Assembly: GCF_964204645.1 (NCBI RefSeq)
Contig: NC_134030.1
Coordinates: 4,193,855-4,257,854, forward strand
DNA: 64,000 nucleotides
Source of the DNA: Tubulanus polymorphus
Taxonomy: Eukaryota; Nemertea; Palaeonemertea; Tubulaniformes; Tubulanidae
Direction of reading: 5' to 3'
Under the pieces are notes generated by a model. It was given only the letters and a program-made list of their open reading frames with translations. It was not told the origin of the DNA and searched no databases. Positions 17,939-41,890 of this stretch are shown here, in pieces; position 1 is the first letter of the stretch, and every line of letters starts with the position of its first letter. The position numbers were made by a program, and so were the translations under genes.

Positions 17939-18658
17939 CGTTTAGTATGCCAGTGTTTAGCTGGTTTCAGAGCGTTCATCAGTAGCAGTTTGTGTATTCA
18001 CTTTTCAAACAACGATATAACCCACTTTCCTGACGATGGTGAATTCGAAGAGAGATGTTTAGATATATCTATACTCCCCTTCCATCGGTAGTGGCGAGTT
18101 TTCCCCGGTCGACTGGTTTGAATGAGATGCTATACACAGTAAAAGCGCATCGTCTACGTACATCGAGATACCAAAAAAACAGTAAAACAAAATCCGAGAT
18201 AAACTTGAGCAGCAAATAAACGGCGGAGCAGGCCTTTATTGCGCATGCAGCGCCTCTGTAGCCTGGTTATTAGGCATGTTTAGATGTATAGGCCTCTGCT
18301 GATGTGGGTAATTGGCCGCGTAATGAGGGGGGCAAAATACAGAGTATTTGGGCCATTAAAACAACACCGCTTTTGATTCATTGTAATTATCCCCGTGGCT
18401 CCACGCTGTGCGATAATATTTCATCGAACGTCGACTGCAACGCAGACTAGTTAAGTGTTTCGCCGGATAATTTGATAATATTCGTGCCATCTATTTCCAC
18501 GCGGCGACCCATTTTCGCGTCAACCGGGTCGCCGTGTTTATATTACACCGAAATTAGACAGCATTGTGATGAGCGATAATTCATATTCTGAAGCGGTGTT
18601 CTATTATGTCACATTCTTTTTTCACCAAAATTGTGGTCTTGATACCTTTTGATCCTCC
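17939..18658. other. Upstream region of the intronless GPCR
   Basis: Minus-strand promoter side of the receptor. No coding sequence recognised. GC-rich islets alternate with ATTA-rich stretches (18220-18390). Confidence 0.4.
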
Positions 18659-20163: not shown

Positions 20164-23100
20164 ATGGTTGTCAGCAGTTGTTGCGGTAACCGACGAGAAA
20201 CCGTTTCTAAAAATGTCAACGGTGCAGCAGCAAAGAAGCTGATGATACAAGAGGAATCATGCGAAGACCAAACAGAGCACAAAAAAGAAAAATGGGGAAG
20301 CGACGTGGAGTTTTTTCTCTCTTGTGTCGGGTATGGAGTCGGTCTTGGAAATATTTGGCGTTTTCCGTATCTGTGTCTACGGAACGGTGGAGGTAAGCAA
20401 AAATAATCTCGACGATCTTCTTTTCGAAACATAACTGGAAAATGATAGAAACGCTCATACAGATTCACTATTCACGCGATCAATTGAAGTTTTATGTTAA
20501 ACGTTTGTGATATTGTCATATTTGCAGGTGCGTTTTTGATCGCATATTTCACGTTCATGATCATTGGAGGAATACCGTTATATTTTCTTGAACTCTGTAT
20601 CGGTCAATATTCCGGTAAAAGTCCGATAGCAGCTTTTGAAGCGCTATGTCCGATGGCAGCAGGTAATAATAATTTCTATCGTCTCGGCGTTACTTCTGAA
20701 TAGGATCTAGAAGGCCTTTCATGTATATTTGTTGATTTTACTGACCTAACCCGAACTTATGCGTGATCTATTTTCTATAATATATAGGTTTAGGATGGGC
20801 AATGCTGATACCCTCAGCAATATGTTTAATCTACCTGCATACAATTATGAACTGGATCCTGTATTATTTCGGTATGACATTTACAAGCTGGGAACCGGTT
20901 TGGGGGCGCTGTGATAATGTTTGGAATACCCCGAATTGTGTGATTACCGGGAAGCAGTCGGTCAATCAGACAAACCAAACAGCGATGATGAACGAAACAA
21001 CCACCAACTACTCACCATCAAATATCAGTTTCGTGTTGTCGAATGAATCATCTCTGAAACCGATGTCATCAGGGGAGGAATTCTGGCAGTACGTTTTCGG
21101 AATGATACATTATCCCATCTTACAATTTGGAGAGTATAGAAATATATATCAGGTGATATTGATATTTGATAGCCACAACCAACAATTTTCAGGTACAACG
21201 TTCTGGAATTAACGGATGGTATTGGTAATATTGGAGGATTTCGTTGGGAGTTGATAGTCTGTCACATAGCCGCTTGGATAATCGTTTATGCGTGTCTGTG
21301 CAAAGGAGTGCAATCTTCTGGGAAGGTAATTATCATAAGGTGAACGACCACTGTTAAACACTGCGGGAATACCAATCAAAGGCATGAAGTATGTACAATT
21401 GTATGTGAAAGGGTCAACTTACATTATAATTATAGCAACAAAATGCCTTTTGTTATAAGTTCACATCGACTAAAAATCGTATTCAATGTGTTTTATACAT
21501 TGATATTTGATGATACTCTTTTTCAAACCTTTAACTGATTATTCTGGTAATTTGTTTTCTTGTCTGCTATTCAGGTAATATATGTGACCGCAACAGCTCC
21601 ATTTGTTTGCCTAATCGCCTTATTAATAAGAGGTGTTACTCTTCCGGGGGCTCTAGATGGAATCATGTATTTTGTCGTACCCGAATGGAGTAAACTTCTC
21701 TCCGTTAAGGTAAATCATTTTCATCACAAAACCTATGTTGAAACGTATCTGCTGTTGAATATCTTAGATGTTAAAGAAGAGAACTATATTGTATTATCGT
21801 AGATCTGGGCTGAAGCTTGTTTGCAGATATATTACTCAATCGGTCCAGGTTGGGGTGGTCTGATTACAATGGCAAGCTACAATAGATTCAATCAGAATAT
21901 CTATCGGTGAGTTATTTTTCTGTCTCTATTTTCTCGTTATTTCCTTTCTTTCGTGCTGTCAATTTGCATTTTTGTCATTTCTCACAGAGACGCTATAGTC
22001 GTTCCTGTTATCACGTGTTTTACTAGTTTATTCGCCGGATTCGTTACTTTTTCAATCATCGGTAACCTAGCACACCAGGCTGGTGTTACAGTAAGCGAGG
22101 CCCTTACCTCCGGTAAGATATGACTCCACATTTACTCTAATTCTTTCGGCTGGGGTTGAAACAAAGCATACCTGCGTCGACGGATCAGGAAGTTAGAAGT
22201 CATTCGGTTGGATGATATGAGAAATTCGGATAAATTCTATCTGTTGTTGTTATAAACTTTTACCTCTAAAGCGCGTACTGCTTATCATTCTTATTCTAAA
22301 TACGTTTGTTTATACATTAGGTCCCGGTCTAGCGTTCATCGTTTTCCCGATGGCCCTTGCCAAAATACCAGGAGCGGCGATCTGGTCGGGTTTATTTTTC
22401 ATCATGCTAATGACCGTTGGACTCGATACACAGGTACGTATACGTCTTCTGAGCAATAATATCGCTATTCATAAAAGATCCATGAGATCCGAACGTATGA
22501 AGCATTTTTTCATGTTAGCATCACGTCAACGAACTACGGAACCTAATTTCATAATTGTAGTTTGTTATTATTTTACAATGTATAGTTTGTAACGATGGAA
22601 ACGTTGGTCACAACGTTGACGGATAAGTACCCGATTTTACGGAAGCGAAAGTCGCTGTTTATATTTTGTATCGTGATCGTGTGTTTCCTGCTTGGTCTTC
22701 TGTTCTCCAGTCGAGTGAGTATTCAATATTCCTGTTTTATGCTCTTACGCCTTGCTGAGTCTAGATAGAATATAGGGAGCTCCGGGAGTTACAGGGTGAA
22801 AAATGAATATTCTTCTTTTTTTTCGTTGGATTTCCAGTCGAACGAAATATTCGTTTCTTTACTTATTTTTCACCATGTCACCTCCGGGGCTCCGTAAGAA
22901 TACGCCGTTAACTACATTTTGAAAACAGATGATCGCTTCTTTGTAACTTTTCTTTTCTATATACCCGAACGACTTTTTCAAACACATCCGAAATGAATTT
23001 TTAGACAAAATACACTTTCAACAGGCATTTTGCTTGAAGTGCTGCACCCGTAACCTGCATGGAAAATATGTGATTTTTTCTTAGAGCGGAATGTATTGGT

Positions 23101-24157
23101 TTCAACTATTCGATTGGTATGTGGCGATGGTAGCGTTATTACTAGTATCAGCATTGGAATGTATAGTTGTGACTTATATTTACGGTACGCTTCGTTTGGC
23201 CATGCGCTCACAATTCGCCTCTTCACTCGAACTCGCAGAGCCAGGACATGTTTGGATACATATGTCACAAACAACGATGAGAACTACATGTTACTAGAAA
23301 AACAACCACGCATAATTCTGAATAAGCGATTAGTTAATTCGTTGCGTCATTTTCATTTATACAAATATCTCAGTCAACTATGAATAAATGAATTACTTAA
23401 CATTTTACGAATTTTTTCACATACATATAGTAATACGTACTTTATCTAAAAACAACAGCAAGTATTAAAGATTTCAAATCGGATTGAGCGCTAATTATGG
23501 TTAAAGCGTCACTTCGATAGCTACGTATACTTGCTGGTTAAGTATTAACGAGTAGATTAATTTAACACTATTGCAGGAATAAGCAGGGTGTATAAAGATA
23601 TAGAAGCTATGATTGGATACCGTCCGTCGTGTTTCATGAAGGTATTATGGTGTTCCGTTACTCCTCTCGTTACTGTGGTGAGTGTATTCGTAGATGTCTC
23701 CTGCAAATCGTTACTCCACCAATGATTCACTTTTGAATATTCATCATGAGATTTTTGTTTTCATTATACAATCCAGGCTATGCTGATCTATGTTATGGTA
23801 CAGCAGGTTCCACCCTACTATGGTGACTATTTCTACCCTGATTGGGCTGTTGGTATTGGCTGGTTGATCGCCACAATTTCAACCGTACCCATACCATACT
23901 TCATTTGTAGAGAGCTTTATCGCAATACGGGAACACTGAAAGAGGTAATTTAGGTTTCACACTTTGCGAGATATCTGTCAATGAATGTTCACGTAATTCC
24001 TACCAAGACTTCACTTTTACACTTGGGTATTTTATCTATGTTTTTCAAATAGCGATTCCTGAAAGGGCTCAAATCGACTGAAGATTGGGTACCTGCAAAT
24101 GAACAGAACAAAGCGGATTCTCAAATACCGATGGTGAATTTAAAACCCGGAGTATAG
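20164..24157 (+). CDS. SLC6 Na+/Cl- transporter, array copy 1 (13 exons, 625 aa)
   Basis: Exons 20164-20392, 20528-20662, 20788-21088, 21193-21325, 21575-21709, 21803-21906, 21988-22112, 22321-22433, 22586-22714, 23085-23184, 23577-23677, 23777-23944, 24053-24157; 1878 nt, all phases close. TM1 carries [14 protein letters not shown] with Gly, not the monoamine Asp. ECL2 has the paired Cys ([11 protein letters not shown]) and six N-glycosylation sequons. TM6 has [21 protein letters not shown] (Cl- Gln/Ser), TM7 FSIIG, TM8 GLDT (Na+ site). [36 protein letters not shown] and the C-terminal DWVPAN tail fit the glycine transporters SLC6A5/A9 best among families I recall. It would import an amino acid with Na+ and Cl- at the plasma membrane; the substrate is inferred. 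The N-terminal CC pair is shared by all copies. Confidence 0.93.
22776..22893. mobile_element. MITE-like inverted repeat in copy 1 intron 9
   Basis: Arms of about 30 bp: GGAGCTCCGGGAGTTACAGG then GTGAAAAAT, mirrored by ATTTTTCAC and CACCTCCGGGGCTCC. It is absent from the same intron of the other copies, so it inserted after duplication. Confidence 0.6.
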
Positions 24158-25866
24158 AGTTCGCTATATCCTGATGCGTATTTTAACATTGATCTTTCGA
24201 CGAAAGAACTAACTATTCGATAGCAGAATCGATTTACAAATGATGTATATTACATCAGTAATTTGAAAGACTGAGCTTTGGACTAGCTTTGTGTAATGTT
24301 ATCAACCTGATAATATCATTATGCAATATGGATACTGCTGATTTGTGACAGCCTAGATTAAACCATGGACGTGTAATCTCCCGATTCAAACGTCCACGAT
24401 CTGAAACTGTGGACCCATTTTTCCGGGTCGAAGCTACACCCCAAGTAACTAGCGCTGATTATTCAACGATTTCTTTTGTGTACGAGAAATGCAGCCTCCG
24501 TCCAGCTTCTAGAGATCTCATGTTATATAGTGAGACTATTTTCATAGTTTTATGTACCTACATCGCATCGTGGGATGAATTTTATTTTGTATTTTATCAT
24601 TATTATCAATATCAATATTATTACAATACCATATCAAATATATTATTTGAGGTTGTTGCATTCGAAAAATATACATTTTGAGCTTTATCATATCATTGGT
24701 TCATTTATTGGTGCTATTTATTCTGATCCTATTCTCGAACAATGGTCAACGTCTGAAATCCGGAACAGATCGAACCAGTAACGATAGAACTATGCGCTCG
24801 GAATACCAAAACTGGACTGACTTCATTTTACACAATTTTACATACATTGGAAACAATACGAGTAGAAACAAGGGAATTGATGTACAAACAAAGGTGATGA
24901 GTAATGACACGACAAGAGAGACGAACAATAATCAACACGCAGAACTGTCTCAAAGGAACATAGAGTAATTACATACAGCCATTTAAAAATTAAGAGAATA
25001 TGAATATAGATTATACAAGAATTAGTGAACTTTGGCTTTGCTATACTATATGAGGATCCACTTCGGCGACGTCTATATTATAAGAAGATGTACACATGAC
25101 ACAGACACAAAGAGGGATTCCTTATATGATAAATGATTTTATTTTAGAATTTGAGATGATGATTATCATCAGTATTCAAGACCCAGCAGCTTATTCTTTG
25201 CGGACTGGGAAGCGAGTGGCCCCTGGTTCGAAACCACCTTTGGCGTTGACGTTAGCGTTTTAGATATATACGATTTAGATCAGAGTCTTATTGCGTCGTT
25301 GACTATCACACCAGACTACCAATTGACATGATATTCGAAACCATGAAGTGGTTGCGTATATCGGCGAGCGGGTCGATTTGAAAGATAATTCCCATAGGTG
25401 GAATTTATTGGCAAATTATCAGATTGGCAAATTATCAGGTCATTTTCAAACAAACTCATCACTTATCATGTGCCATAAGTAAACAAATCCAATAACTTTG
25501 ATATCATGAAATTTGGTGGAGTAGATCATATACAATTTTCTGTCGTCACTTATTGATATTAAAGCTACATTAAAAGGTTATCATTACCTAGGTCATCTAT
25601 ATCCTATTCGAAGATTAATTCACATTCTTCAAACTTCTGTCGATAGGTGTTGATTTTGATGATATACGTAAACAACCGCATGTGTCACAGCTTTGGTAAG
25701 TAATATATTCACTAATGCTTATTATTATAACATGATCATCATATATTCAAATTCCATGCATTTCGATTATGCACAGGTGTTTTGAAACAACTGCGTACAC
25801 TATAGATATACTCATGTGCATCAGATGTAGGACCGATGATCGTGTGATTATTGACAAATCAAGATT
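24158..25866. other. Spacer between SLC6 copies 1 and 2
   Basis: About 1.7 kb, AT-rich. It holds the 3' UTR of copy 1 and the promoter of copy 2. One small open frame with a leader-like start lies at 24678-24968 (separate entry). No relic exons were recognised. Confidence 0.5.
24678..24968 (+). CDS. Doubtful small secreted ORF (96 aa)
   Basis: MSFIISLVHLLVLFILILFS would serve as a signal peptide. The remainder is polar, Asn/Thr-rich, with four N-glycosylation sequons (NWT, NFT, NTS, NDT) and no Cys. There is no homology I recognise, and AT-rich spacer DNA readily yields such frames. It is probably chance. Confidence 0.15.
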   Translation: MSFIISLVHLLVLFILILFSNNGQRLKSGTDRTSNDRTMRSEYQNWTDFILHNFTYIGNNTSRNKGIDVQTKVMSNDTTRETNNNQHAELSQRNIE

Positions 25867-28800
25867 ATGGTTGTCCGTAATTGCTGCGGGGCTCGACCAG
25901 ATATCGTTGCCGATAATGTCGACGAACCAGGAGCGGCAAGTGAGCTAACGATACATAATGACGCATCTAACGAAAAACAAACAGAGCATAAAAAAGAAAA
26001 ATGGGGAAGCGACGTGGAGTTTTTTCTCTCTTGTGTCGGGTATGGAGTCGGTCTAGGGAATATTTGGCGTTTTCCGTACCTTTGTCTACGGAACGGCGGA
26101 GGTAAGCATTTCAGTAAAATACCACATATTATCATCTATTGACATTCAAAACGACATCGAGATAATTCATAGATTACACAATCGTATAGATTACAACAAT
26201 GTGGGCTGAATAAAAGAGCCATAAAACAATGAAGTGGCTCAACGTAATTAGGCAGCGGTAGGTTTCATTTTGGTTCTTCCGAATCGCACAAACTATCGGG
26301 TTAATTCTAGTATAGAATAGAATATGGCGGCTGATTCGGACCACAAAATCGCCAATTGATTTGAAGTAAATTAAAGTAATCTTCATCATGCCGCTCGTGA
26401 AACAACTAGTAGATTTCACCTAAAACACTGAAATCATCTTTTTAGTCGAGTAACAACTTTTAGGTAATTTCATCAGGGTCTTTAGTCTGGAATATATCTT
26501 ACTCGGACCAATTTCTTTTTTTTTGTTTAGTTTAAAGTTGGTTTCTTTATCAAAATTGTTTTAAGGACCTAAAACGTTTGTTTGAGCGTTAGTGTTCCAA
26601 ATCAGCCGCCATAGTATACAGCCAGTTCGCATGGAGCACATCGGCTGGTATAGAAATTATGTCCCTCCCGTATCACCCGATGTTAAATTGTGATCAATGA
26701 TAACATAATATCTTAAGGATCGTGCAAGGATTCATTTCTATATAAACCTATTCAATTGTATCATTTGCAGGTGCATTTTTGATCGCATATTTCACGTTCA
26801 TGGTCATAGGAGGAATACCGTTATATTTTCTTGAACTCTGCATCGGTCAATATTCCGGTAAAAGTCCGATAGCAGCTTTTGAAGCGTTATGTCCGTTGGC
26901 AGCTGGTAAGAATCAGTCGGAAAAATAGAATCAGCGTTCTTCACTTCTATCTTCATCATAAGTATTATATTATATATTTGTACGCTGTCTCTATGGGAGA
27001 AATTGCTACTCACAGAACGTATACATTAGAACTTGCCATTACAGGTATAGGATGGGCAATGCTCATACCATCAGTAATATGTCTGATCTACCTCCATACA
27101 ATTATGAACTGGATCCTGTATTATTTTGGTATGACATTTACTAGTTGGGATCCGGTTTGGGGGCGCTGTGATAACGCTTGGAATACCCCGAATTGTGTGG
27201 TTACCGGGCAGCAGTCGGTCAATCAGACAAACCAAACAGCGATGATGAACGAAACAACCACCAACTACTCACCATCAAATATCAGTTTCGTGTCGTCGAA
27301 TGAATCATCTCTGAAACCGATGTCATCAGGGGAGGAATTCTGGCAGTATGTGGTCAGAAAGACTAGTCATTCAAATAGAAAAACTTCTAAAAGATATAGT
27401 TTCATTGATGTATTGGACTGCACCTTATAATTTTCAGGTACAACGTTCTGGAATTAACTGATGGTATTGGTAATTTTGGTGGATTTCGTTGGGAGCTGAT
27501 AGTCTGTCACGTGGCTGCTTGGTTAATTGTTTACCTATGCATGTGCAAAGGAGTAAAATCTTCGGGAAAGGTATGTCTTCCTGTGATATCTGATAAAAAT
27601 TCGGTCAATAAATCTGAAATGTAGGCCTAAGGTAAATGTGAAGAGATACGTGTTATATCCACACCGTAACGCTGAGGTTATAGCTTCCAATATCTGCGGT
27701 TCAAAATTATGGGAATATTCATATGCTTATACTTTTAGAATTGATCAAGTTGTTCCATATCCTCTATTAAGGTAATTTGTTTTCTTGTATTCAGGTAATT
27801 TATGTGACGGCAACAGCTCCATTTGTTTGCCTGATCGCCTTATTAATAAGAGGTGTTACTCTTCCGGGGTCTCTAGATGGAATCTTGTATTTTGTGGTAC
27901 CCGAATGGAGTAAACTTCTATCTGTTAAGGTAACTTAATCATTATCGAAACAAATAGAGAAAAATAACTGCTTTTAAATATCTTACATAAGTATATATTG
28001 TATTATCGTAGATCTGGGCTGAAGCTTGTTTGCAGATATATTACTCAATCGGTCCAGGTTGGGGTGGTCTGATTACAATGGCAAGCTACAATAGATTCAA
28101 TCAGAATATCTATCGGTGAGTTGTTTTTCAGTCTCTATTTTCTCGTTATTTCCTTTCTTTCGTGCTGTCAATTTGCATTTTTGTCATTTCTCACAGAGAC
28201 GCTATAGTCGTTCCAGTGATAACGTGTTTTACTAGTTTATTCGCCGGATTCGTTACTTTTTCAATCATCGGTAACCTAGCACACCAGGCTGGTGTTACAG
28301 TAAGCGAGGCCCTTACCTCCGGTAAGGTCATTTCGATCTACATTTGATGAACAATTTTGGTATAGGTCATGTAAAAAATTTGCCCATTTGAACACAGGTC
28401 CCGGTCTGGCGTTCATCGTTTTTCCGATGGCCCTTGCCAAAATACCAGGAGCGGCGATCTGGTCGGGTTTATTTTTCATCATGCTGATGACAATTGGTCT
28501 CGATACACAGGTACGTCGTATAAATACATATGTGGTGAAGAAATAAACGCAAAACAACAATTGGAGATTTGATAATGCTGTAAATCATTATCTATCCAGT
28601 GATCACCATAATCAATGCTTTATCAAGCCTGATTCCCTTTTTTGATTCCAGTTTGTCACGATGGAAACGTTTATCACAGCTTTGATGGATAAGTACACGA
28701 TTCTACGGAAGCGAAAGTCATTGTTCATTTTGTTTAACGTCACTTTCTGTTTTCTATGTGGTTTATTATTCTGTTGTCGGGTATGTACATATGTGATTTC

Positions 28801-30202
28801 ATTGTGCCTCTGTTTATTTTCTTGCTTTCTCCTTCGTTTGCTATGGGGTCCTATTATGATTTTTTTACGTCGACAAAAAGTCATAATCATGGCTACGTAA
28901 ATACTTATATATTTTTCTGTCAAAAACGTTTCATTTTTCGTTCTTATTATGTAGAGCGGGATGTACTGGTTTCAACTATTTGACTGGTACGTGGCTATAG
29001 TTGCATTGCTTCTAGTATCAGCACTGGAATGTATAGTAGCGACTTATATTTACGGTTAGTCCTTTAATTCGTCGAAACGCGATATTTTGCAGAGTAAAAT
29101 TAAAATATCACGGCGTATAATATATACGTAACTTAATGTGTTGCTGCTATAGTTTGATAGCGTTTACTTAACCCGCTGGTAATGCGATATCCTTCCACAG
29201 CAGGCATTCGAACCTGATGACACCGAAGACACCTGCCACGGCAGCGATGCCATCGGGTTCGACACCCTGATGGGGGAGATTATAATGTGAATTTTCTGAT
29301 ATGATATCTAGGTGTTAACAGATTGTATAAAGATATAGAAGCTATGATTGGATATCGTCCGTCGTGTTTCATGAAAGCACTGTGGTGCTCCATCACTCCT
29401 ATTATCACTACAGTAAGCTGATCTTGTTCATGATGAATCGATTGATTTGCTTTAAGTCCATCGCACCCGCCATCTATACAAGGCGTCTGAAAAGCCAAGG
29501 CTAAAAAATGGATACCTTGTTTCTCCGCTCTGCTGAGCTTAAAAGTTGACCCGGCTGGCCGCCTAGTATCTCCCCTGTACATTACGTTTTTTTTTTAAAT
29601 CGTGATAAATTTTACAACAACTGGCCCGGCAGCCATAGAAATGATTACAAATTGTATTATATTTAACAAAAATGGCCCGGCCGCTGCAGAGAAACAAGGT
29701 ATCATTTTTGTTTAGCCTAGGCGGATTTTCAATGTTTCTAGCTAATGAAAGCATTAAGGCATATATTCGTATTTGTCTATTTTAGGTTATGCTTATATAT
29801 GTTATGGTGCAGCAAGTTCTGCCTTATTACGGAGACTATTTCTACCCTGATTGGGCTGTTGGTATTGGCTGGTTGATCGCCACAATTTCAGCCGTTCCCA
29901 TTCCCTACTTCATTTGTAAAGAGCTTTATTGTAATACTGGAACACTGAAAGAGGTAAACAAGAATTAAGCAGATATTGACTTGTACATAAATATGATTAG
30001 ATAAATGGTTTGCGCAGTTTTTTTTACAAGAATTTTTGTATATTTTACGTAGCGATTCAGGAGAAGTTTAAAGCCGACTGAATCTTGGGTGGCTGCAACA
30101 TTACAGAATAAAGAGGATGCTTTACTACCGATGGAGGATTTGAAACCAGGAGCCAATTACATAGTCGAGGCATTTAGTCACGATCAGACTCTTTCATGTT
30201 GA
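25867..30202 (+). CDS. SLC6 Na+/Cl- transporter, array copy 2 (13 exons, 642 aa, extended tail)
   Basis: Exons 25867-26101, 26771-26905, 27045-27345, 27438-27570, 27795-27929, 28012-28115, 28197-28321, 28398-28510, 28652-28780, 28955-29054, 29312-29412, 29786-29953, 30053-30202; 1929 nt. Intron positions and phases equal those of copy 1. All transport motifs are intact ([29 protein letters not shown]). The tail differs: where copies 1 and 3 end KPGV/KIGV, this copy reads KPGA and runs 15 more residues to FSHDQTLSC, a stop-loss extension. Exons 6-7 and intron 6 nearly equal copy 1. Introns 1 and 11 carry inverted-repeat insertions. AATAAA is at about 30385. Confidence 0.93.
26321..26614. mobile_element. 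MITE-like element in copy 2 intron 1 (TATGGCGGCTGATT arms)
   Basis: TATGGCGGCTGATTCGGA at the left is mirrored by TTCCAAATCAGCCGCCATA at the right. It accounts for much of the extra length of intron 1 in this copy. Confidence 0.55.
29495..29721. mobile_element. MITE-like element in copy 2 intron 11
   Basis: Inverted arms of about 32 bp with cores GATACCTTGTTTCTC (left) and GAGAAACAAGGTATC (right), and AGGCTAAA/TTTAGCCT outside. GGCCCGGC motifs repeat inside. Non-coding. Confidence 0.65.
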
Positions 30203-31189
30203 TTCTATGATAAAAACCGGTTCATTTGGACTTTTGATTCCCCCTCCTGGAACGGGTATAGAATATAAATTGTCGTCATAAAACCTCATATATACATGAC
30301 ATGTTTAACACTGACGAGAGACAATATTATACTGACCCAGACATATAACATGTAATGGAGAAATCTAAATCATTACGGAATGTCGAATAAATCACTACTA
30401 CTCGTTGATTATGAATATTCAAATTAGCAAGGTGGATGTTAGGGGGCTATTTTGTAAGACATAGATTCGTCGGACGAGTTTCAGTTATCAGTTGATATTT
30501 CATATCATTTTAGACTGCAGAGGGTGGTAGTTACACCCGACATATTTCTACTTGTAATCAATGCATTAGTTTAATTATTTGGGTTTTACGTGTTTTCAAA
30601 TCTAAAGATATACAAGAATTTTACTCGTGCTTAAGTAGGATACCCGTCACAAGGAAATGATAATTTTTTTTCAATGATTCATCAGCTAATTGATCGTTAT
30701 CCTTGTTGTGTTCCCTTGTGCAAAAGAGGTTTCCATTTTCTATTGTATATAATCACACATTCACGATGCTATTGTATATATATCTTTTTATCTTGAAAAT
30801 TGGATAATTATTCCCCATTAACTTTGATTTGATTTGATACTTTGGTGTCTGGGATTTTTTTCACTTTGAAATCGGAAATCGAAGTTATAAGGGCTTATAT
30901 TGGCCAAAATGGGGATACTGTATATATTAGGACATTTCAACTTTTCACTCATCAGAAGAAAGTGTAGAGACCCGCTAACGAAGCATTTCTGGAACGAAGT
31001 ACACAGCGTTGAAGATCATGATATTATAGGCCTGGATAAAATGAATGGTGGATGGACGTGCAGAAATATGTCGAAAATTTGTGGATAGACAATTAGCTGA
31101 AGACATAAGCCTTGGAATAAACATATAGATCAAATAACCCAATTAGTGTCCCTAGTTTCCCCTTCAGGATCTTGGCAACTGTTTTGTAT

Positions 31190-31545
31190 TTTGTATCCTT
31201 AAGCCGGGCGTAGGTCGGCCTTGCGACGCGACGCGATCGTCGCGTTGCGTCACAAGTGACCGCACAAGTCGGTTGCGATGCGGTTGTCAGCAACTGTGTG
31301 CGACTAGTTGCTGCCAGGGCCCGGTTTCACGAACAGGGATTAAGTCCGTAATTCGAATTAATTCTCTAATTCGAATCAAATGTTAATCCCCGTTCGTGAA
31401 ACCGGGCCCAGTCGCAACAGCGCGTAGGTCGGTTGCGACGGTCGCGTCGCGTTGCAGAAAGTAGAACATGTGCGACTCATTGCGACTGGCATCGCTGGCA
31501 GTCGCAACCCGTCGCTGGCAGTCGCTAGGTAGCGTAGGTCGAGTT
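31190..31545. repeat. GTCGCAAC-rich repeat region, split by a MITE
   Basis: GCGTAGGTCGG plus runs of GTCGCGTCGCGTTGC recur on both sides of the inner element (31197-31240 and 31420-31460), with further GGCAGTCGC units to 31530. GC-rich in an AT-rich spacer. Probably a palindromic transposon relic. Confidence 0.6.
31317..31409. mobile_element. 93-bp MITE with GGGCCCGGTTTCACGAA termini
   Basis: Terminal inverted repeats of 27 bp with one mismatch begin GGGCCCGGTTTCACGAAC. The short AT-rich centre has no coding capacity. It is nested inside the GTCGCAAC repeat, which reads CTGCCA before it and GTCGCAAC after it. Confidence 0.85.
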
Positions 31546-31559
31546 CATAGTGACCTTGA

Positions 31560-31560
<1 letters not shown>

Positions 31561-31597
<37 letters not shown>
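31561..31597. repeat. (TA)n microsatellite
   Basis: About 18 uninterrupted TA dinucleotides. Confidence 0.95.
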
Positions 31598-31600
<3 letters not shown>

Positions 31601-31992
31601 AATGATCGCACTAATTTGATGATACTTTGTTTAGATCGAAGTACATTTTGGAATTTCGCTTCCGGGTCCGGCAAGCGAGGCCTTTTTCGGCCGCTTATTG
31701 GATACATCTAAATTTGGCAATAGCTATCAGGTTTTAATATCATATGTTGCATATGTTCTAACATTAACAAAGATGTTCTGTCAACAGAAAATTATTTATA
31801 AAAAACCAATCGATAAGCTGAAAAGAATAAAAAAAACCTGTTTGAACAGCTTGAACGAGCTTGTTACATTGATATAGAGCGTATACTCTAGCGTATGTTG
31901 TCGTACGCACGACTGACTGCTCCAGTCAAGTTTTAGTCGATACCACTTCACGTTCATCGAGCCATCCGTAGGTATGTCGTGAAACCGGCGAA

Positions 31993-34900
31993 ATGGTTTT
32001 CAGTAATTGTTGCGGAACTCGACGAGATGTCGCCTCGAATAATGTCGACGACTCAGCAGCGACAAAGGAGCTAACGATACATAATGATGCATCTGACGAA
32101 AAACAAACAGAGCATAAAAAAGAAAAATGGGGAAGCGACGTGGAGTTTTTTCTCTCTTGTGTCGGGTATGGAGTCGGTCTTGGGAATATTTGGCGTTTTC
32201 CGTACCTGTGTCTACGGAACGGTGGAGGTAAGCATAATAAGCACCTACAAATATACGCTGATGCATCTATATTGCATCATTCAATGACTGATCTGAATGT
32301 TTTATTCAATATTGAAAGATTTCGCAGAAATGATACAAATCTGGTTGATATCTAAAACTCTATTGCTTTAATTTCTGATTACACTGAACTCTGGAATCGA
32401 ATTCATACGTAGCCTAACTAACTGCATGCAGAATGTATGGCCACTGTTACGAGAAAAATATCAGGGTTTTTTAGCATCAATTGAGAAATAATAAAATGAG
32501 TCATTTTTGCTGAGTAATTACAGTATGCTCTAATCACCCACATCTGTTGATACTGGTAGATACCAAAACATACCAAGGGGCGTTCGCTTATGTACCAAAT
32601 GTAGCTTAAACAAAATTCAGTATCCCTGTATGATAAATATACAGGGATACTGGGGTTAGTTAGCCAATGATACTGGTTTTGTTCATTCTCAATTGCGACA
32701 AATCCCTGTCACAATTGGTGACGAATTGAATAATGTTTTTGAAAATTTATGTATAATTTGGAGCAATGAGGAATAATCTAATCTAATCCGCATGCATGGA
32801 TTTTCCACTTGTAGAAATTTACATCAGCTAAAAACGGCTGCATGCAAAATAGGCAGCGCAGTCGTAGCCCTTCTCTATCATCGAGCCGACTACTATATGT
32901 AGTAACATTTTTTCTTACTCCGGTTTTTGTCTGGTTTTTGTGTTTGACGAAAATTTTGAAGGCCGTGTAATTTTCCATTGCATTCAATGCAGGTCGTGAA
33001 TTATTCTAAACGATCGCTTATTCATAGTGTAGACACTATTCATAATGAAACGCGACATGTTACCGCACATTAATCATGATCGGAATAATCGTTTTGAATC
33101 TGTTTTATGTAAAAAATTACTAAACTTTTTTCTAGTTTTGTATGAAGCTCTTTTTGTAAGTGATTTAATTCATTCAATTCCTTCGAATGATCCTTTTTTT
33201 CGTGAGCGTTTGCTTAAACTTAATAAAAAGAAAAACGACCGATATTTTTGTCATTCATTCATTTTCTCATTCATGAATTCTAGGTGCATTTGTGATCGCC
33301 TATTTTACGTTTATGATCATAAGTGGAATACCGTTATATTTGCTTGAACTATGCGTTGGACAATATTCCGGTAAAAGCCCAATAGCCGCTTTTGAAGCGC
33401 TATGTCCAATATCAGCGGGTAAGATTTACAGTATATATTATTAACATACAGATTGTAAATTAAACACAAAATGCCAAAACCGTCCAAGCTTTCACCAGGT
33501 CTGTATCATTACAGGTTTAGGATGGGCAATGTTGATACCCTCAGCATTCTGTCTAGTCTATCTCAACAGCATCATGAACTGGATTCTGTATTATTTTGGT
33601 ATGACATTCGTTAGTTGGGATCCGGTTTGGGGGCGCTGTGATAACGCTTGGAATACCCCGAATTGTGTGGTTACCGGGCAGCAGTCGGTCAATCACACAA
33701 ACCAAACAGCGCTGATGAACGAAACAACCACCAACTACTCACCATCAAATATCAGTTTCGTGTCGTCGAATGAATCATCTCTGAAAGCGATGTCATCAGG
33801 GGAGGAGTTTTGGCAGTACGTGGTTAGAATGAAAAAACGTATTGTTTGGATAGAAACACTTCCAAGTGATATCTTCACGGTTCCATAAGTATTTGATAGC
33901 AACTACTTATCATTTTCAGGTACAACGTTCTGGAATTAACGGATGGAATTGGTAATTTTGGTGGATTTCGTTGGGAGTTGATAGTCTGTCACTTGGCTGC
34001 CTGGTTTATTGTTTACGTATGCCTTTGCAGAGGAGTGAAATCTTCAGGAAAGGTCAATAATATATGGTGAACATTGTAATAACTATTCTCAGCTCAGGAG
34101 AACTAATTGAAGATCTGAAATATATATGATGCTTTTAAGATATCAGGGGCTAATTATAATCCATTTAGAACTGCTCACATTCTCGATTATTCAGGTAATA
34201 TACGTGACGGCGACAGCTCCATATGTTTGCCTGGTCGCCTTATTAATAAGAGGTGTTACTCTTCCGGGGGCTGTAGATGGAATCATGTATTACATCGTAC
34301 CTGACTGGAGTAAACTTCTCTCCGTCAAGGTAAATCATTATCATTAATTGAAATAGAGCAAATACGTCTGCTGTTAGATATTTAAGAAGAGAACTATATT
34401 GTATTATCGTAGATCTGGGCTGAAGCTTGTTTGCAGATATATTACTCAATCGGTCCAGGTTGGGGTGGTCTGATTACAATGGCAAGCTACAATAGGTTCA
34501 ACAATAATATATATCGGTGAGTCTTATTTTTAAACCAAAAACGATGTCTCAAAATCTGACTAATTCATGATGGTTATTTTCAGAGACGCTATAGTTATAC
34601 CAGTGCTGACATGTTTTACTAGCTTCTTCGCCGGGTTCGTCACATTTTCTATTATCGGTCATCTAGCACACCAGGCTGGTGTAACGGTTAGTGAGGCCCT
34701 TACCTCCGGTAAGACACAAGCTACATTACCTTTTACTAACATGCATATTTCATTCCGTACTTAAAATAACTAATTTTACTTACTATTGCAGGTCCCGGCC
34801 TGGCATTCATTGTTTTTCCGATGGCCATCTCCAAAATACCAGGAGCGCCAATTTGGTCGGGTTTATTTTTCTTAATGTTGTTGACAGTCGGGCTTGATAC

Positions 34901-36674
34901 ACAGGTAAATGCCAGAATTCTTAGAACGTCTTTTACTACTTCAGAATAGAACTAAAAAGTGTTTGAATAAATTCGCTTTCTCGTAAGAATGATAATTAGT
35001 TTTCAATATGGGCCGAGGAATGAAAATCCAGCCCTAAAAAGGTGATGAAGATAAACTTGTTTTATTTGTGGTTGTGGTAGCGTCTATTCACAAAGATCAT
35101 TGTTATTTAAATATATAGTTCGTTATGATGGAAACATTGGTCACGGCTTTGATGGATAAGTACACGATTTTACGGAAGCGAAAGTCGTTGTTCATATTGT
35201 TTATCGTCGTTGTATGTGTCCTGGTCGGCCTTTTGTTCTGTTGTCGGGTAAGTGTATAAAGTCAGATATGAAAAGTCCATTTTCTCCTCGACTAACGCGT
35301 CGTTAAGTGAAAGACTGTTAGACCCAGACCAAGATGACGCAACGTTGGTGGCATAACGTGTGTGTAGCAGTGCTGAAAGCAATTAACGCCAAATAACGAC
35401 ATTTTCCAAATGTATTGTATTGAAATTTATTGTATTTAAATTCTATGTAATGAAATTTAGGACCATTATGGCCTATTTCAATTAACAAAACTTAGAATTT
35501 ATACTTTTTCTCTCCCAGGGAGGCATGTATTGGTTTCAACTATTGGACTGGTATGCTGGCATGTTCACGTTACTGATAGTATCTACTTTAGAGTGTGTAG
35601 TTGTATCATATATATACGGTATGATATGTATCCGGTGAATTCAATTTTTTTCTAGATATTAGAATTGCACGTACATTTATCAATTAGCATTGGCATGAGT
35701 TACGTTATTTATTAGCCTGTGATTAGCGCGTTGAACAATTTTAAATCAAAATACACAAAATCAACAGGATTGTAGAGAACCGAATGACAAACTGGCCTAT
35801 TCTCTAAACCACAGATACAGTATTTCCTGGATTATAGATGAATAATCACGCGTCTGTAGTTTCGAGAATATAGGTCTGGCCCTGGTCCTATGTTATGTTG
35901 GGTTTGATTATAGCCTACAGAGTGAAAATGACAACATATTTCACTGGATGCCTGCGAGACAAAACTGTTTCGAAAATTCTAGAAACATGTACAAATGAAA
36001 AAGTACGATCTGATCTATAGGAATGAACAGAATGTATGACGATATAGAAGCTATGATTGGATATCGTCCTTCATGTTTTATGAAAGCACTGTGGTGTTCG
36101 ATCACTCCAATTATAACTACAGTAAGTGCGTTTTGAGTACCGGCTTTCGGACTCTTCTAGCATAACAATTGAAATACATATTGATTCCTAATCCATTCAA
36201 ATGACATATTTTCACTTGCATCCGTTGTAGGTTATGCTGGTATATGTTATAGTGCAGCAAGTTCCAGCCTACTATGGTGACTATTTCTACCCGGATTGGG
36301 CTGTTGGTATTGGCTGGTTTATCGCTACAATTTCAACCGTTCCTATTCTGCTCTTCTTTTGTAAAGAACTTTACAACAACACCGGCTCATTGATAGAGGT
36401 AAATATTATCTAAATGGAAGGTTTTTGCTATAAGGGTCCTTGCAACAAAGAATATACATGATTAATACTACTCCCATCCCAACCACCACCCCCCCCCTCA
36501 CTCCACATCTAAAAACATCCTATTCTTAAATGCTCTTAATTTCGTGTTGATTTGATTTATTCTGCGCAGAGATTCAAGAATGGTTTAAAGCCGACTGAAG
36601 CTTGGGCAGCAGCAACTCTACAGAATAAAGAAGAAACTTTACTACCGATGTCGGACTTAAAAATAGGAGTATAA
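31993..36674 (+). CDS. SLC6 Na+/Cl- transporter, array copy 3 (13 exons, 627 aa)
   Basis: Exons 31993-32227, 33284-33418, 33515-33815, 33920-34052, 34195-34329, 34413-34516, 34584-34708, 34792-34904, 35119-35247, 35519-35618, 36021-36121, 36231-36398, 36570-36674; 1884 nt, all phases close. Core motifs are as in copy 1, including the TM6 [16 protein letters not shown]2 is more divergent ([17 protein letters not shown]) and TM12 reads [15 protein letters not shown], the most altered of the set. The exon 4 donor is the weak gtcaat. ECL2 keeps six sequons and is almost identical in DNA to the other copies. AATAAA is near 36765. Substrate inferred as for copy 1; paralogue-specific tuning is possible. 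Confidence 0.93.
32618..32652. repeat. Perfect 14-bp hairpin in copy 3 intron 1
   Basis: CAGTATCCCTGTAT, a 7-nt loop, then ATACAGGGATACTG. Possibly the remains of a palindromic element; no function is implied. Confidence 0.85.
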
Positions 36675-37488
36675 CGCTATCTAAACTACCGGTTATCTAG
36701 GCTAACAAACTGCTGAACTAATTGTAATAACTAAAATCAATAGATACATCGAACTACCTTTTGAATAAAATGAATAATTTGATTTTTATGCGAAAAAGAA
36801 TTTCTTGTGTTCTCTTTTATATTGGATGAAGGACAATTTAACGAAGACAGAGAAGAAAAAGCTAGCTTTTCCATGATACATTATAACTTCCGCTTACTCT
36901 ATGACGTGATATGACATTGTGCTCACGGGTTACAGGGATGTACCACCATATATTATGTACGATTATCAATATTTGACTGAAATTATACTGATTTCGCTGA
37001 TAGTTTTTTTATATTTAGAAATGCAGCTGAAGTCCCGTTTAACGGATCAACTTAAAAAAGAAAAATTATGGAAATTAATTGAAATATTTAATCACGTTCT
37101 TCTGCCAAAAGGGTAGATTGGGAGTAGACGGCATTTTATAGTGGGCCCTAAATTGTAATGATTCTTATTGCATTGTATAAAAATAGTTCAATTATACCAT
37201 TGAAGGAACGTTTCCATTCAAGACCTGCTTGGTATATTATCCCTTCATTAAGTCATTATATCCAGTAAGCTAATAACTCGTTTAATTCGAATCGGTATTT
37301 TTTATTCACTTAGTATGGACTAGAAATCCTGTCTACGCTATGTTATTTCTATCCAAATGAGAGAACATAATTCGGATTTCGTTTAATTCGGTAAAAATTT
37401 CCCAGTCCCAGGTGATACGAATTGAGCGAATCTACTGTGCGTGTGTATGATTCTACGAGTCAGTTCATTAAACAGCTGAACAGCGAAT
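36675..37488. other. Spacer between SLC6 copies 3 and 4
   Basis: The shortest spacer in the array (0.8 kb). It contains a pogo/Tigger-like MITE at 37263-37437, ending 50 bp before the copy 4 start codon, so the element may supply part of the promoter or 5' UTR. Confidence 0.5.
37263..37437. mobile_element. Pogo/Tigger-like MITE upstream of SLC6 copy 4
   Basis: Ends CAGTAAGCTAATAACTCG and GAGCGAATCTACTG form degenerate inverted termini related to the element at 3391-3537. TTAATTCG motifs repeat inside. Confidence 0.45.
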
Positions 37489-40400
37489 ATGGTTGTCAGA
37501 AGCTGTTGTGGCGTTCAGCAAGAAATCGCTTCGGAAAATGTCAACGGTTCAGCAGGAAAGGAGTTGATAGTACAAAATGAATCGTGCGACAGAGGAAAAA
37601 CAGAGCATAAAAAAGAGAAATGGGGAAGCGACGTGGAGTTTTTTCTCTCTTGTCTCGGGTATGGAGTCGGTCTTGGGAATATTTGGCGTTTTCCGTACCT
37701 GTGTCTACGGAACGGCGGAGGTAAGCAAAATGAATATATATATAGTTGGCCCCGTTGATTGAAAGATTTTATCTATTTTATTTCTAACATTACTCGGCGA
37801 ATTTAACCATAAAAATGGTCGGATACCGATTTCTTATAAATTTTGATATAGATCGCTGAATTTGGAGTTAACTCATCGTAATTTCATTATAATGTAGGTG
37901 CGTTTTTGATCGCATATTTCACGTTCATGGTCATTGGAGGAATACCGTTATATTTTCTTGAACTATGTATTGGTCAATATTCCGGTAAAGGTCCGATAGC
38001 AGCTTTTGAAGCGCTGTGTCCGATGGCTGCTGGTAAGAACTGAGTCATATTTAGTGTTTTTTTGGCCATGGTCAGATATTCAATTAGTTCATTATTACAG
38101 GTTTAGGATGGGCAATGTTGATACCCTCAGCATTCTGTCTAGTTTATCTCAACAGCATCATGAACTGGATTCTGTATTATTTTGGTATGACATTTACTAG
38201 CTGGGATCCGGTTTGGGGGCGCTGTGATAACGTTTGGAATACCCCGAATTGTGTGGTTACCGGGCAGCAGTCGGTCAATCAGACAAACCAAACAGCGATG
38301 ATGAACGAAACAACCACCAACTACTCACCATCAAATATCAGTTTCGTGTCGTCGAATGAATCATCTTCGAAACCGATGTCATCAGGGGAGGAGTTTTGGC
38401 AGTACGTTGTCAGAAAATATTCGCTGTCTCATTTGCAATTTGTAGAATATATGAAACATCTTAAGAGTTTTATCGGTATTTCGTATCCATATCGCACTGG
38501 TTTCAGGTACAACGTTCTAGAATTAACTGATGGAATTGGTAATTTTGGTGGATTTCGTTGGGAGTTGATCGTCTGTCACGTGGCTGCTTGGTTTATTGTT
38601 TATGTGTGCATGTGCAAAGGAGTAAAATCTTCTGGAAAGGTAATTTGCTTATAAAAATTAGAAGCCTACATTCTAGTTAGTTAAACTATGTAGACGTCAC
38701 TGTTTGTTGAAGTCAAAATCATTGAAAAAATGGAAAATCATCACAAAATTACTGCCATATTTTGCCAAAAATGAAATTTCATTACGAGGATTCTTACGAA
38801 ATGATCAATTTCAGCGATTTTGCATGGTTTAGAGTTTTCGATTCAGGTTATTTATGTGACGGCGACCGCTCCATATGTTTGCCTGATCGCCTTATTAATA
38901 AGAGGTGTTACTCTTCCGGGGGCTCTAGATGGAATCATGTATTACATCGTACCTGACTGGAGTAAACTTCTCTCCGTCAAGGTAAATCATTATCATTAAT
39001 AGAAATAGAGCAAATACGTCTGCTGTTAAATGTTAAAGAAGAGAACTATATTGTATCGTAGATCTGGGCTGAAGCATGTTTGCAGATATATTACTCAATC
39101 GGTCCAGGTTTCGGTGGTCTGATTACAATGGCGAGCTACAATAGATTCAATCAGAATATCTATCGGCGAGTAGTTTTTTCTATTTTAATATATTCCCCAC
39201 ATCACTTACATTTTACTAAAATGTTCGTTACATTTTACAGAGACGCTATAGTTATACCAGTGCTGACTTGTCTAACTAGTTTTTTCGCCGGGTTCGTCAC
39301 ATTTTCTATTATCGGTCATCTAGCACACCAGGCTGGTGTAACGGTTAGTGAGGCCATTACTTCTGGTAAGTTTTTCTATTATGCATCGTTAAGACGAATG
39401 CTTTACTAACTCAGTCGCCGACTTGCATTTAGCAGAATGCAAATATACGGCTTCTGTTGAATACAATTTAGAGAGCTCTTCAACCAATTGTTTAGATTTC
39501 TTCACCGCAAAAATTGTATTGCTTTTTATGTGGGGCGTATACCGTGCGAAATATGCTTACATGCTTGACATTGTGTTGACATTTTGCTTATACATTAGGT
39601 CCCGGTCTGGCGTTCATTGTTTTCCCGATGGCCATCTCCAAAATACCAGGAGCGGCGATCTGGTCGGGTTTATTTTTCATCATGCTGATAACCGTTGGAC
39701 TCGATACGCAGGTAGATTGTGTCCTCGGACTGAGTAGCATGTTTAGAAAAGGAATAACGGATTCGTGATAGCTCTGTCAAAGGCGGCCTTCTCTAGTAAA
39801 AGGGGTCTAATAAATCTGCATTTTTTAAGTCAACGTTTAACAAGACCTACGATATGTTCTAGTATCCATCAATACGCATTCGTTTGATCAGGATTCCAAG
39901 ACAAAAAAACTTCATCTAAACCAGAATTTGAACAATAGTGAAATGATTAAAAACACATTTTTTTAAGCCTGTATGCCTGCCATCTGATTAATCAGCTGTT
40001 CAACTTTTTCATGTGATATGTTTGCAATTATTATTTTTCAATATTTAGTTTGTCATTATGGAAACTCTGATCACGGCTTTGACGGACAAGTACAAGATTT
40101 TAGGGAAGCGAAAATCGCTGTTTATTCTGGTCACCGTCATCGTATGTTTCCTGATCGGTTTTCTATTCTGTTGTCGGGTAGGGATTCTAAGATCTTCATG
40201 TATGAGATACTTCATTTAAAGGTTTAAAAAAGATATTCAGGAAATGTAATATGTCCTTTAATCTGCAACCCGTAGAGCGTTCACCATTCTAGCATGGAGT
40301 CTTTTTGAAAGCACATTCATTGATTAAAACATCTAATATTTGGTGGTCGTAGTTGATTCCCAGTTATCATCAATGTCCTCTACGATCACAAATTGAGAGA

Positions 40401-41424
40401 ATGACGATGAAGTATTGAATGTCTTAATCGAAAAAGATTGGTGCCAAAATTTATAAAGAGATCTATTTCTTTAAATGGGAAAAATGAAAATAAAATTTTT
40501 TTTCGCAGTTTGAATATTTTCCACACGAAACCATCAAAACATTGCAGAATTCCGGGAGGCGCTTCCGTACGCCAATATATTAAAAAGGACCTTAGTTGAC
40601 ATGCTTCGTAAAATACATATTTTCTCTTAGGGAGGCATGTATTGGTTTCAATTATTAGATTGGTACACTGGTATGTTCACTTTACTCATTGTATCTGCGG
40701 CAGAAAGCATAGTTGTAGCACATATATACGGTAAGCCTGTTTGGCTAACTAGTTATAATTTCCACCGTGATTGGTCAAATTTTGCTCGAACAATTTTGAA
40801 ATTAGCCTCAAAGGAGAGAATGACCGTATATGTAAATCACATTATCTAAAATTGCAGGAATGAACAGGATGTATACAGATATAGAAGCTATGATTGGATA
40901 CCGTCCGTCGTGTTTCATGAAGGTATTGTGGTGTTCCGTTACTCCTATTGTTACCGTGGTAAGTTTGAAATTTTCAAAGGGATTTGATGTTTCAACTGCA
41001 TATGAATGTTTAATTAATATATCGGCATATATTTTGCTAGGCTGTGCTGGTATATGTTATAGTACAGCAAGTACCAGCCTACTATGGTGACTATTTCTAC
41101 CCTGATTGGGCTGTTGGTATTGGCTGGTTTATCGCTACAATTTCAACCGTTCCCATACCATACTTCATTTGTAAAGAGCTTTATCGCAATACCGGAACAC
41201 TGAAAGAGGTAAGACAGTTTAGAATCACAATTAATTTTTGGAATTCCGGACCTTGTCCTCTTTTGGCTCAACTGATATCTCAATATTCTGCATCGTTTTT
41301 CCAGAGATTCAAGTATGGGATAAAACCGACTGAAGCTTGGGTAGCAGCAACTAACCCGATTGAAGACGATACTCTCCATTTATCGATGGTAGAAATGAAA
41401 ACGATACCGGTTTCGAGCAGCTGA
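37489..41424 (+). CDS. SLC6 Na+/Cl- transporter, array copy 4 (13 exons, 631 aa)
   Basis: Exons 37489-37720, 37898-38032, 38101-38401, 38507-38639, 38847-38981, 39062-39165, 39241-39365, 39599-39711, 40049-40177, 40631-40730, 40858-40958, 41041-41208, 41305-41424; 1896 nt. The exon 6 donor is GC (TATCG|gcgagt) where copies 1-3 have gtgagt. TM6 reads [14 protein letters not shown]: the Trp of the other copies is Phe (codon 39110-39112), at a pocket-lining position in glycine transporters. TM2 has SGKGPIAAF for SGKSPIAAF. The last exon encodes its own tail ([13 protein letters not shown]). Other Na+/Cl- site motifs are kept, so it should be functional if the GC intron is spliced. AATAAA is near 41510. 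Confidence 0.92.

Positions 41425-41773: not shown

Positions 41774-41890
<117 letters not shown>

Follow-up and report, generated by a model that had tools for sequence, protein, structure and literature searches.

The stretch of DNA analysed here, referred to as the window, comprises 64,000 nucleotides (nt) of contig NC_134030.1 of the nemertean Tubulanus polymorphus (RefSeq assembly GCF_964204645.1, positions 4,193,855 to 4,257,854 of the forward strand), and it carries a tandem array of genes of the SLC6 transporter family. According to exon models, four intact SLC6 genes lie head to tail on the + strand between positions 20164 and 41424, each with 13 exons. In all four encoded proteins, the tyrosine of transmembrane helix (TM) 3 and the asparagine of TM7 at the first sodium site (Na1), which are central to substrate-sodium coupling in SLC6 carriers, are replaced. 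The genes are the following:

20164..24157, + strand: SLC6 copy A, 13 exons, 625 amino acids (exon model, splice sites; PF00209, 595.5 bits)
25867..30202, + strand: SLC6 copy B, 13 exons, 642 amino acids (exon model, spliced aligner)
31993..36674, + strand: SLC6 copy C, 13 exons, 627 amino acids (exon model)
37489..41424, + strand: SLC6 copy D, 13 exons, 631 amino acids (exon model, GC donor in intron 6; PF00209, 602.2 bits)

The initial annotation had described four complete genes in which only exons 1 and 13 vary, and this description stands. Exons 2-12 measure 135, 301, 133, 135, 104, 125, 113, 129, 100, 101 and 168 nt in every copy, and length differences are confined to exon 1 (229-235 nt) and exon 13 (105-150 nt). 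The 12 intron borders of copy B were reproduced by a spliced aligner. The donor of intron 6 in copy D, at position 39166, is GC (GCGAGT), making this a GC-AG intron, and all 47 remaining introns are GT-AG. The Pfam run covered copies A and D; the SNF domain spans profile positions 2-521 of 524 in copy A, and no extra domain besides SNF was found in either of these two copies. Pairwise protein identity within the array ranges from 80.8 to 87.0%. Over the shared core of 1668 nt, synonymous divergence (dS) is 0.30-0.48 and the ratio of nonsynonymous to synonymous divergence (dN/dS) is 0.14-0.19 in all six pairs, so the four copies look like constrained proteins. A chance, collapsed or false duplication is ruled out by the intact 13-exon frames, the purifying selection and the diverged introns, and the same evidence excludes pseudogenes. 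The array of four genes is real and, by itself, ordinary. Its membership of SLC6 rests on homology and is beyond doubt; that it has an ordinary Na1 site appears doubtful.

The pocket was read from an alignment with GlyT1 (8wfj) and four GlyT2-like chains. The identities of the ion and substrate ligands are those given for the GAT1 structure (PMC10352132) and the glycine subfamily (PMC12655857), and the residue correspondence between LeuT, GAT1, SERT and DAT is that of PMC2194793 (these and the other articles are cited from excerpts). In GAT1, the hydroxyl of the TM3 tyrosine touches the carboxylate of the substrate, which also completes Na1 (PMC10352132). This tyrosine also belongs to the extracellular lid (PMC7466448) and is described as indispensable in the paper on Ntl. 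The size of the GlyT1 pocket is limited by a tryptophan in TM6 (PMC10352132). The codons at the altered positions, all on the + strand, are:

Copy A 20835..20837 (CTG), copy B 27092-27094 (CTC), copy C 33562-33564 (CTC), copy D 38148-38150 (CTC): Leu138, at the TM3 tyrosine position
Copy A 22013..22015 (ACG), copy B 28222-28224, copy C 34609-34611, copy D 39266-39268: Thr355, at the TM7 Na1 asparagine position
Copy A 20335..20337 (GGA), copy B 26044-26046, copy C 32170-32172, copy D 37663-37665: Gly58, at the TM1 alanine position
Copy D 39110..39112: Phe, at the GlyT1 Trp376 position (Trp in copies A, B and C)

In all four copies, the TM3 tyrosine (GAT1 Tyr140, LeuT Y108) is replaced by leucine, the TM7 asparagine (GAT1 Asn327, a Na1 ligand) by threonine and the TM1 alanine (GAT1 Ala61) by glycine. 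The Na1 set (GAT1 A61, N66, S295 and N327) is thereby only half kept, with N66 and S295 retained in every copy. The Cl- ligands Y104, Q319, S323 and S359 of copy A, corresponding to GAT1 Y86, Q291, S295 and S331, are retained in all four copies. Also retained are the Na2 ligands G56, V59, V/I420, D423 and T424 (copy A numbering; GAT1 G59, I62, L392, D395 and S396), the threonine at the S396 position being present in GlyT1 and GlyT2 as well (PMC12655857), and the extracellular Arg/Asp gate residues. The statement of the initial annotation that every Na+ and Cl- motif is preserved is correct for the Cl- and Na2 sets and wrong for Na1. What takes its place is of greater interest: an SLC6 clade under constraint in which the Na1 and substrate site is remodelled and whose sister gene bears the tyrosine. 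Further pocket differences are a tyrosine in TM6 (Tyr321), at a column where each of the 21 aligned non-array genes has phenylalanine, and position 428 (copy A numbering), which reads T/T/M/I across copies A/B/C/D. An alternative exon carrying the tyrosine was considered and rejected: TM3 lies within exon 3, and introns 2 (68-139 nt) and 3 (92-105 nt) are too short to hold one. Recoding by RNA editing is likewise excluded, as the leucine codons (CTG, CTC) and threonine codons (ACG, ACA, ACT) are not convertible to tyrosine or asparagine by A-to-I changes.

The conservation of these positions was assessed in the genome of the host (assembly G000, 267.8 Mb, 77 contigs). A Pfam SNF search gave at least 149 exon matches, around which spliced models were built; scoring covered 82 of the 316 first-look candidates, and more SLC6 genes may exist. 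The tree and the pocket table include the array and 21 other SLC6 genes, five of 25 models being omitted as partial, mis-modelled or long-branch (C1_19970k-2, C5_215k+1, C5_20420k-1, C5_20420k-2 and C3_3414k-1). Outside the array, the TM3 tyrosine is present in all 21 aligned genes, the TM7 position is asparagine in 19 of the 21, threonine in one (C7, described below) and cysteine in one, and the TM1 position is alanine in 19 of the 20 genes covered and serine in the other. Among the omitted models, C3_3414 has tyrosine in TM3 and asparagine in TM7, C5_215 has the tyrosine with TM7 uncovered, C5_20420k-1 has tyrosine and aspartate, and C5_20420k-2 is without TM3 coverage. C1_19970k-2 has cysteine in TM7, its omission being to the disadvantage of the tree for this position; its TM3 is not properly modelled, and since a non-tyrosine stretch was taken as a misplacement, its TM3 residue stays unassigned. 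Locus L039 (C5:21.11 Mb), outside the tree, has the TM3 tyrosine, and L041 and L042 are without TM3 coverage. Model C1_6178k-1 extends over 16 kb and takes in more than one gene; when L009 and L010 are read separately, each has tyrosine. A non-tyrosine TM3 reading in L024 (6053-6253) was dismissed as a misplacement, as the tyrosine is found at 6475-6711 of the same gene, and serine readings in TM7 (L006, L008, L013, L018 and L034) are read-through past the exon end, the proper exon having asparagine or cysteine.

In addition, 82 more distant relatives were compared, namely the best 80 of at least 586 prokaryotic loci and two viral contigs. All 82 have the TM3 tyrosine and the TM1 alanine, and the TM7 position is asparagine in 71 and aspartate in 10 of the 81 covered. 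The search patterns, GLGN[IV]WRF and N[IV]WRFPY, do not include the TM1 alanine, TM3 tyrosine or TM7 asparagine; the counts for the TM1 glycine and asparagine are not independent because these residues are fixed by the patterns. Across the 21 other host genes, 74 columns are invariant, and five of these are changed in all four array copies (P82A, Y138L, V268I, F321Y and Y396F). Single other genes, used as a control, break 0-4 of the columns that are invariant in all remaining genes, array included, so that a count of five is in itself unremarkable. The noteworthy point is the identity of Y138L, the only pocket change among the five that loses a side-chain ligand, and not the number. Among the open-access literature matches listed, the titles and abstract beginnings describe no natural SLC6 protein without the TM3 tyrosine, subscription papers and animal protein databases lying outside this search.

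The closest relative of the array among the genes modelled is C7 (G000:C7:18581966-18589985), with 59.6-59.8% identity. C7 shares with the array the 13-exon layout, the TM7 threonine, a TM3 cysteine at the GlyT1 Ile192 position and a very sequon-rich loop 2. It differs in being single-copy at its locus, in retaining the TM3 tyrosine and the TM1 alanine, and in its slower change. Read from the alignment, the TM7 threonine is common to the array and C7, and the TM3 leucine and TM1 glycine occur only in the array. In a tree computed without the pocket columns, the array has support of 100/100, the array with C7 97/95, and their join with four further genes 100/100. The single origin of a local expansion, as initially proposed, is upheld by this own-genome tree; derivation of the copies from different ancient subfamilies, the outcome named beforehand as speaking against it, is ruled out. 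On the tree, one change is required in the TM3 column, two in the TM7 column and two in the TM1 column. In relative-rate comparisons, the array has 72-84 lineage-specific differences against 44-51 for C7, with chi-square values of 5.25-10.45 in eight comparisons (four copies by two outgroups) that are not independent of one another. On the same GlyT2 chain (9wbr), C7 scores 600.4 bits and copy A 515.0; by this measure C7 is closer than the array to known transporters.

As C7 has the TM7 threonine and yet retains the TM3 tyrosine, the TM7 change would have come first. The replacement of the TM7 asparagine by threonine would be placed in the ancestor that C7 shares with the array, followed by the changes of TM3 tyrosine to leucine and TM1 alanine to glycine on the stem of the array and then by amplification as ((A,B),(C,D)). 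This order is the simplest history on the sequences compared. Two relatives of the sister group of the array, L012 and L013 (G000:C1:19.97-19.99 Mb, - strand), have a cysteine at the TM7 Na1 asparagine position, a second, separate change of the Na1 ligand within the same clade.

Among solved structures, the array is nearest to the glycine transporters, as the initial annotation had suggested, with GlyT1 (525.8 bits), GlyT2 (515.0 bits) and the proline transporter (487.6 bits), i.e. SLC6A9, SLC6A5 and SLC6A7, at the top. This placement consists of scores against solved structures and is not a tree with the named animal SLC6 subfamilies. The array shares with these transporters the full-length SNF fold of 12 TMs, the same Cl- and Na2 ligands and, in copies A-C, the GlyT1-like glycine and tryptophan of TM6. 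It is unlike them in the TM3 leucine, TM7 threonine and TM1 glycine, and it stands about 100 bits further than C7 from them on the GlyT2 chain. Local duplication of invertebrate glycine-transporter genes within a lineage has also been described in amphioxus (GlyT2.1 and GlyT2.2), with two copies that, unlike the array, are about 100 kb apart (PMC8699752); the excerpt of that article does not mention loss of pocket residues.

The reading put forward here, with confidence that is evenly balanced, is that the array would encode functional SLC6 carriers derived from glycine transporters, in which the substrate and Na1 site had already been rebuilt when amplification began. Because the Na2, Cl- and extracellular Arg/Asp gate residues are retained and the genes are under selection, the proteins would still be Na+/Cl--driven carriers of the LeuT fold. 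The clamp on the alpha-carboxylate between the TM3 tyrosine hydroxyl and the Na1 ion, as in GAT1, would be gone or rebuilt, and Tyr321 of TM6 may supply a replacement hydroxyl. The outcome could be a weakened or missing Na1 combined either with another substrate or with a small amino acid held in an altered pose. A more specific form of this reading is tentative: the clade may transport without the TM3 tyrosine and the canonical Na1 set, mainly through Na2 and Cl- and with no carboxylate clamp, C7 being the intermediate that fixes the order. In view of the phenylalanine of copy D in place of tryptophan and the T/T/M/I variation at position 428, the copies may differ in cargo. Of the initially expected redundancy or subfunctionalisation, the latter is plausible; ordinary redundant amino-acid carriers are not what the altered Na1 and substrate sites of every copy suggest.

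Several points weigh against a rebuilt, working site. The loss of the tyrosine and the faster evolution also fit relaxed or lost transport, and a threonine at Na1 is itself able to offer an oxygen. When Asn327 of GAT1 was changed to alanine or cysteine, transport fell 20- to 80-fold and the need for Na+ rose, and transport was not abolished (PMC10137170); as these mutants still moved GABA at higher Na+, Na1 is no absolute requirement. Known members differ in their TM1 residue, which is cysteine in the proline transporter (PMC12655857), and threonine, cysteine or aspartate is found at the TM7 position of some relatives, so that only the loss of the tyrosine is unique here. Tyrosine-less relatives in other animals may already stand in databases.

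The array could also be no more than a dosage amplification of ordinary carriers of glycine or neutral amino acids, in which the substitutions are tolerated, the threonine standing in for asparagine and the TM6 tyrosine for the TM3 hydroxyl. This is considered rather unlikely. It agrees with the glycine transporters being the best solved relatives (GlyT1 at the head), with the GlyT-like tryptophan of copies A-C, with the retained Cl- and Na2 ligands, with the remaining transport of GAT1 N327 mutants (PMC10137170) and with tandem SLC6 copies being common in the genome. It has to contend with the TM3 tyrosine being constant in the 21 own-genome genes and the 82 prokaryotic and viral-contig relatives, with its critical role in GAT1 (PMC10352132, PMC10137170) and its indispensability according to the Ntl paper, and with the TM7 asparagine being the site of a disease-causing mutation in GlyT2. 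The latter, N509S, is listed as a hyperekplexia missense mutation in a Na+ site (PMC7377260), N509 being equated with the TM7 asparagine by chain numbering in the alignment. At the other extreme, the proteins would be pseudo-transporters that retain the fold, the Cl- site and the glycosylated loop without transport and serve as a surface receptor, channel, chaperone or binding partner. The loss of both the substrate tyrosine and the Na1 asparagine, the faster evolution compared with C7 and the fact that the homogenised stretch of the array is the six-sequon loop 2 are as expected from such a role; retained Na2, Cl- and gate residues, a dN/dS of 0.14-0.19 across the whole core and the lack of an added Pfam domain in copies A and D are not, and the possibility is judged unlikely.

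For carriers with a rebuilt site, the array would offer a natural clade that lost the TM3 tyrosine after a change of the Na1 asparagine, with a tyrosine-bearing sister in the same genome. The coupling could then be tested with evolved, constrained proteins, beyond point mutants, and copy D, with phenylalanine for the size-limiting tryptophan, would allow the divergence of the pocket between tandem copies to be tested.

The copies have not diverged evenly, and synonymous divergence changes in mosaic fashion along the core. The relevant stretches, on the + strand, are:

Copy A 20893..21078, copy B 27150-27335, copy C 33620-33805, copy D 38206-38391: loop 2 tract, near-identical in all copies
Copy A 21907..21987, copy B 28116-28196: intron 6 pair, 98% identical, which together with exons 6-7 forms the clearest conversion tract between A and B

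Extracellular loop 2 contains six N-glycosylation sequons per copy. The tract covers 186 nt of exon 3, i.e. most of loop 2, with both edges inside the exon, and its DNA matches only the four array sites in the genome. It has 11 polymorphic columns, three of them at third positions; outside the tract, the core has 208 polymorphic third-position columns. Not one of 2000 permutations produced a third-position gap as wide (p 0.0005). For the segment of the core starting from codon 120, all six pairs have a synonymous divergence of 0-0.03. In a longest-run permutation, copies A and B share an identical run of 110 nt across exons 7-8 (p 0.001) and the C-D pair is nominal (p 0.042).

This mosaic fits gene conversion, strongest in loop 2. 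Against this, the longest-run test was not significant for B-D (0.09), B-C (0.13), A-D (0.23) and A-C (0.42). The identity of the loop 2 tract, and of this tract only, could instead stem from a constraint at the DNA or RNA level, such as an overlapping element, which is quite improbable. Such a constraint would account for a tract that is conserved in four copies with edges within exon 3 and near-zero synonymous divergence, and for the tract having one and the same centre in every copy, something that conversion by itself would not demand. However, the predicted fold of the tract of copy B, the one folded, is no better than that of shuffled sequences (z 0.34), and an RNA structure was rejected on this ground; an Rfam scan of the window gave no match. 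In addition, the pair-specific A-B tract spans an intron, and of the 11 changes in the loop 2 tract, eight affect first or second codon positions. Recurrent conversion explains the tract better than an overlapping element, though it does not account for the focus on loop 2.

Elsewhere in the genome, SLC6 genes are also clustered: a pair lies at C2:28.05 Mb and a group of three at C1:20.54-20.61 Mb, and other clusters are found at C1:6.18-6.20 Mb, where three first exons matched, and at C1:19.97-20.00 Mb. Consecutive exons of 135, 104 and 125 nt occur in 21 of 26 SLC6 models outside the array, C7 included. As both recur, the tandem layout and exon pattern of the array are unexceptional. An odd SLC6 gene, L033 (G000:C5:20.42 Mb, - strand), has GYTLGLGNVLRFPY in TM1, aspartate in TM7 and fewer and longer exons.

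Other features of the window flank the array. Directly 3' of copy D lies a trinucleotide microsatellite, (ATA)n, about 114 nt long (41776-41889), and just downstream of the array are exons of an amiloride-sensitive (ENaC/ASIC-type) channel on the - strand (43563-46109; PF00858, 103.4 and 26.5 bits). On the other side, a single open frame of 716 amino acids on the - strand (15794-17941) contains a secretin-family domain of seven TMs (PF00002, 82.3 bits), with a weak, below-cut-off match to somatomedin-B on its N-terminal side. An open frame at 11155-11703 (- strand) has a Tctex-1 domain (PF03645, 91.2 bits), and a fragment of a major facilitator transporter is found at 2662-3006 (+ strand; PF07690, 34.7 bits). 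Exons of a rhodopsin-family receptor (PF00001) lie at 6143-7873 (- strand), with one stretch above and one below the cut-off; the last of them reads LAKSIVIVNPFVYY, a motif that seems opsin-like.

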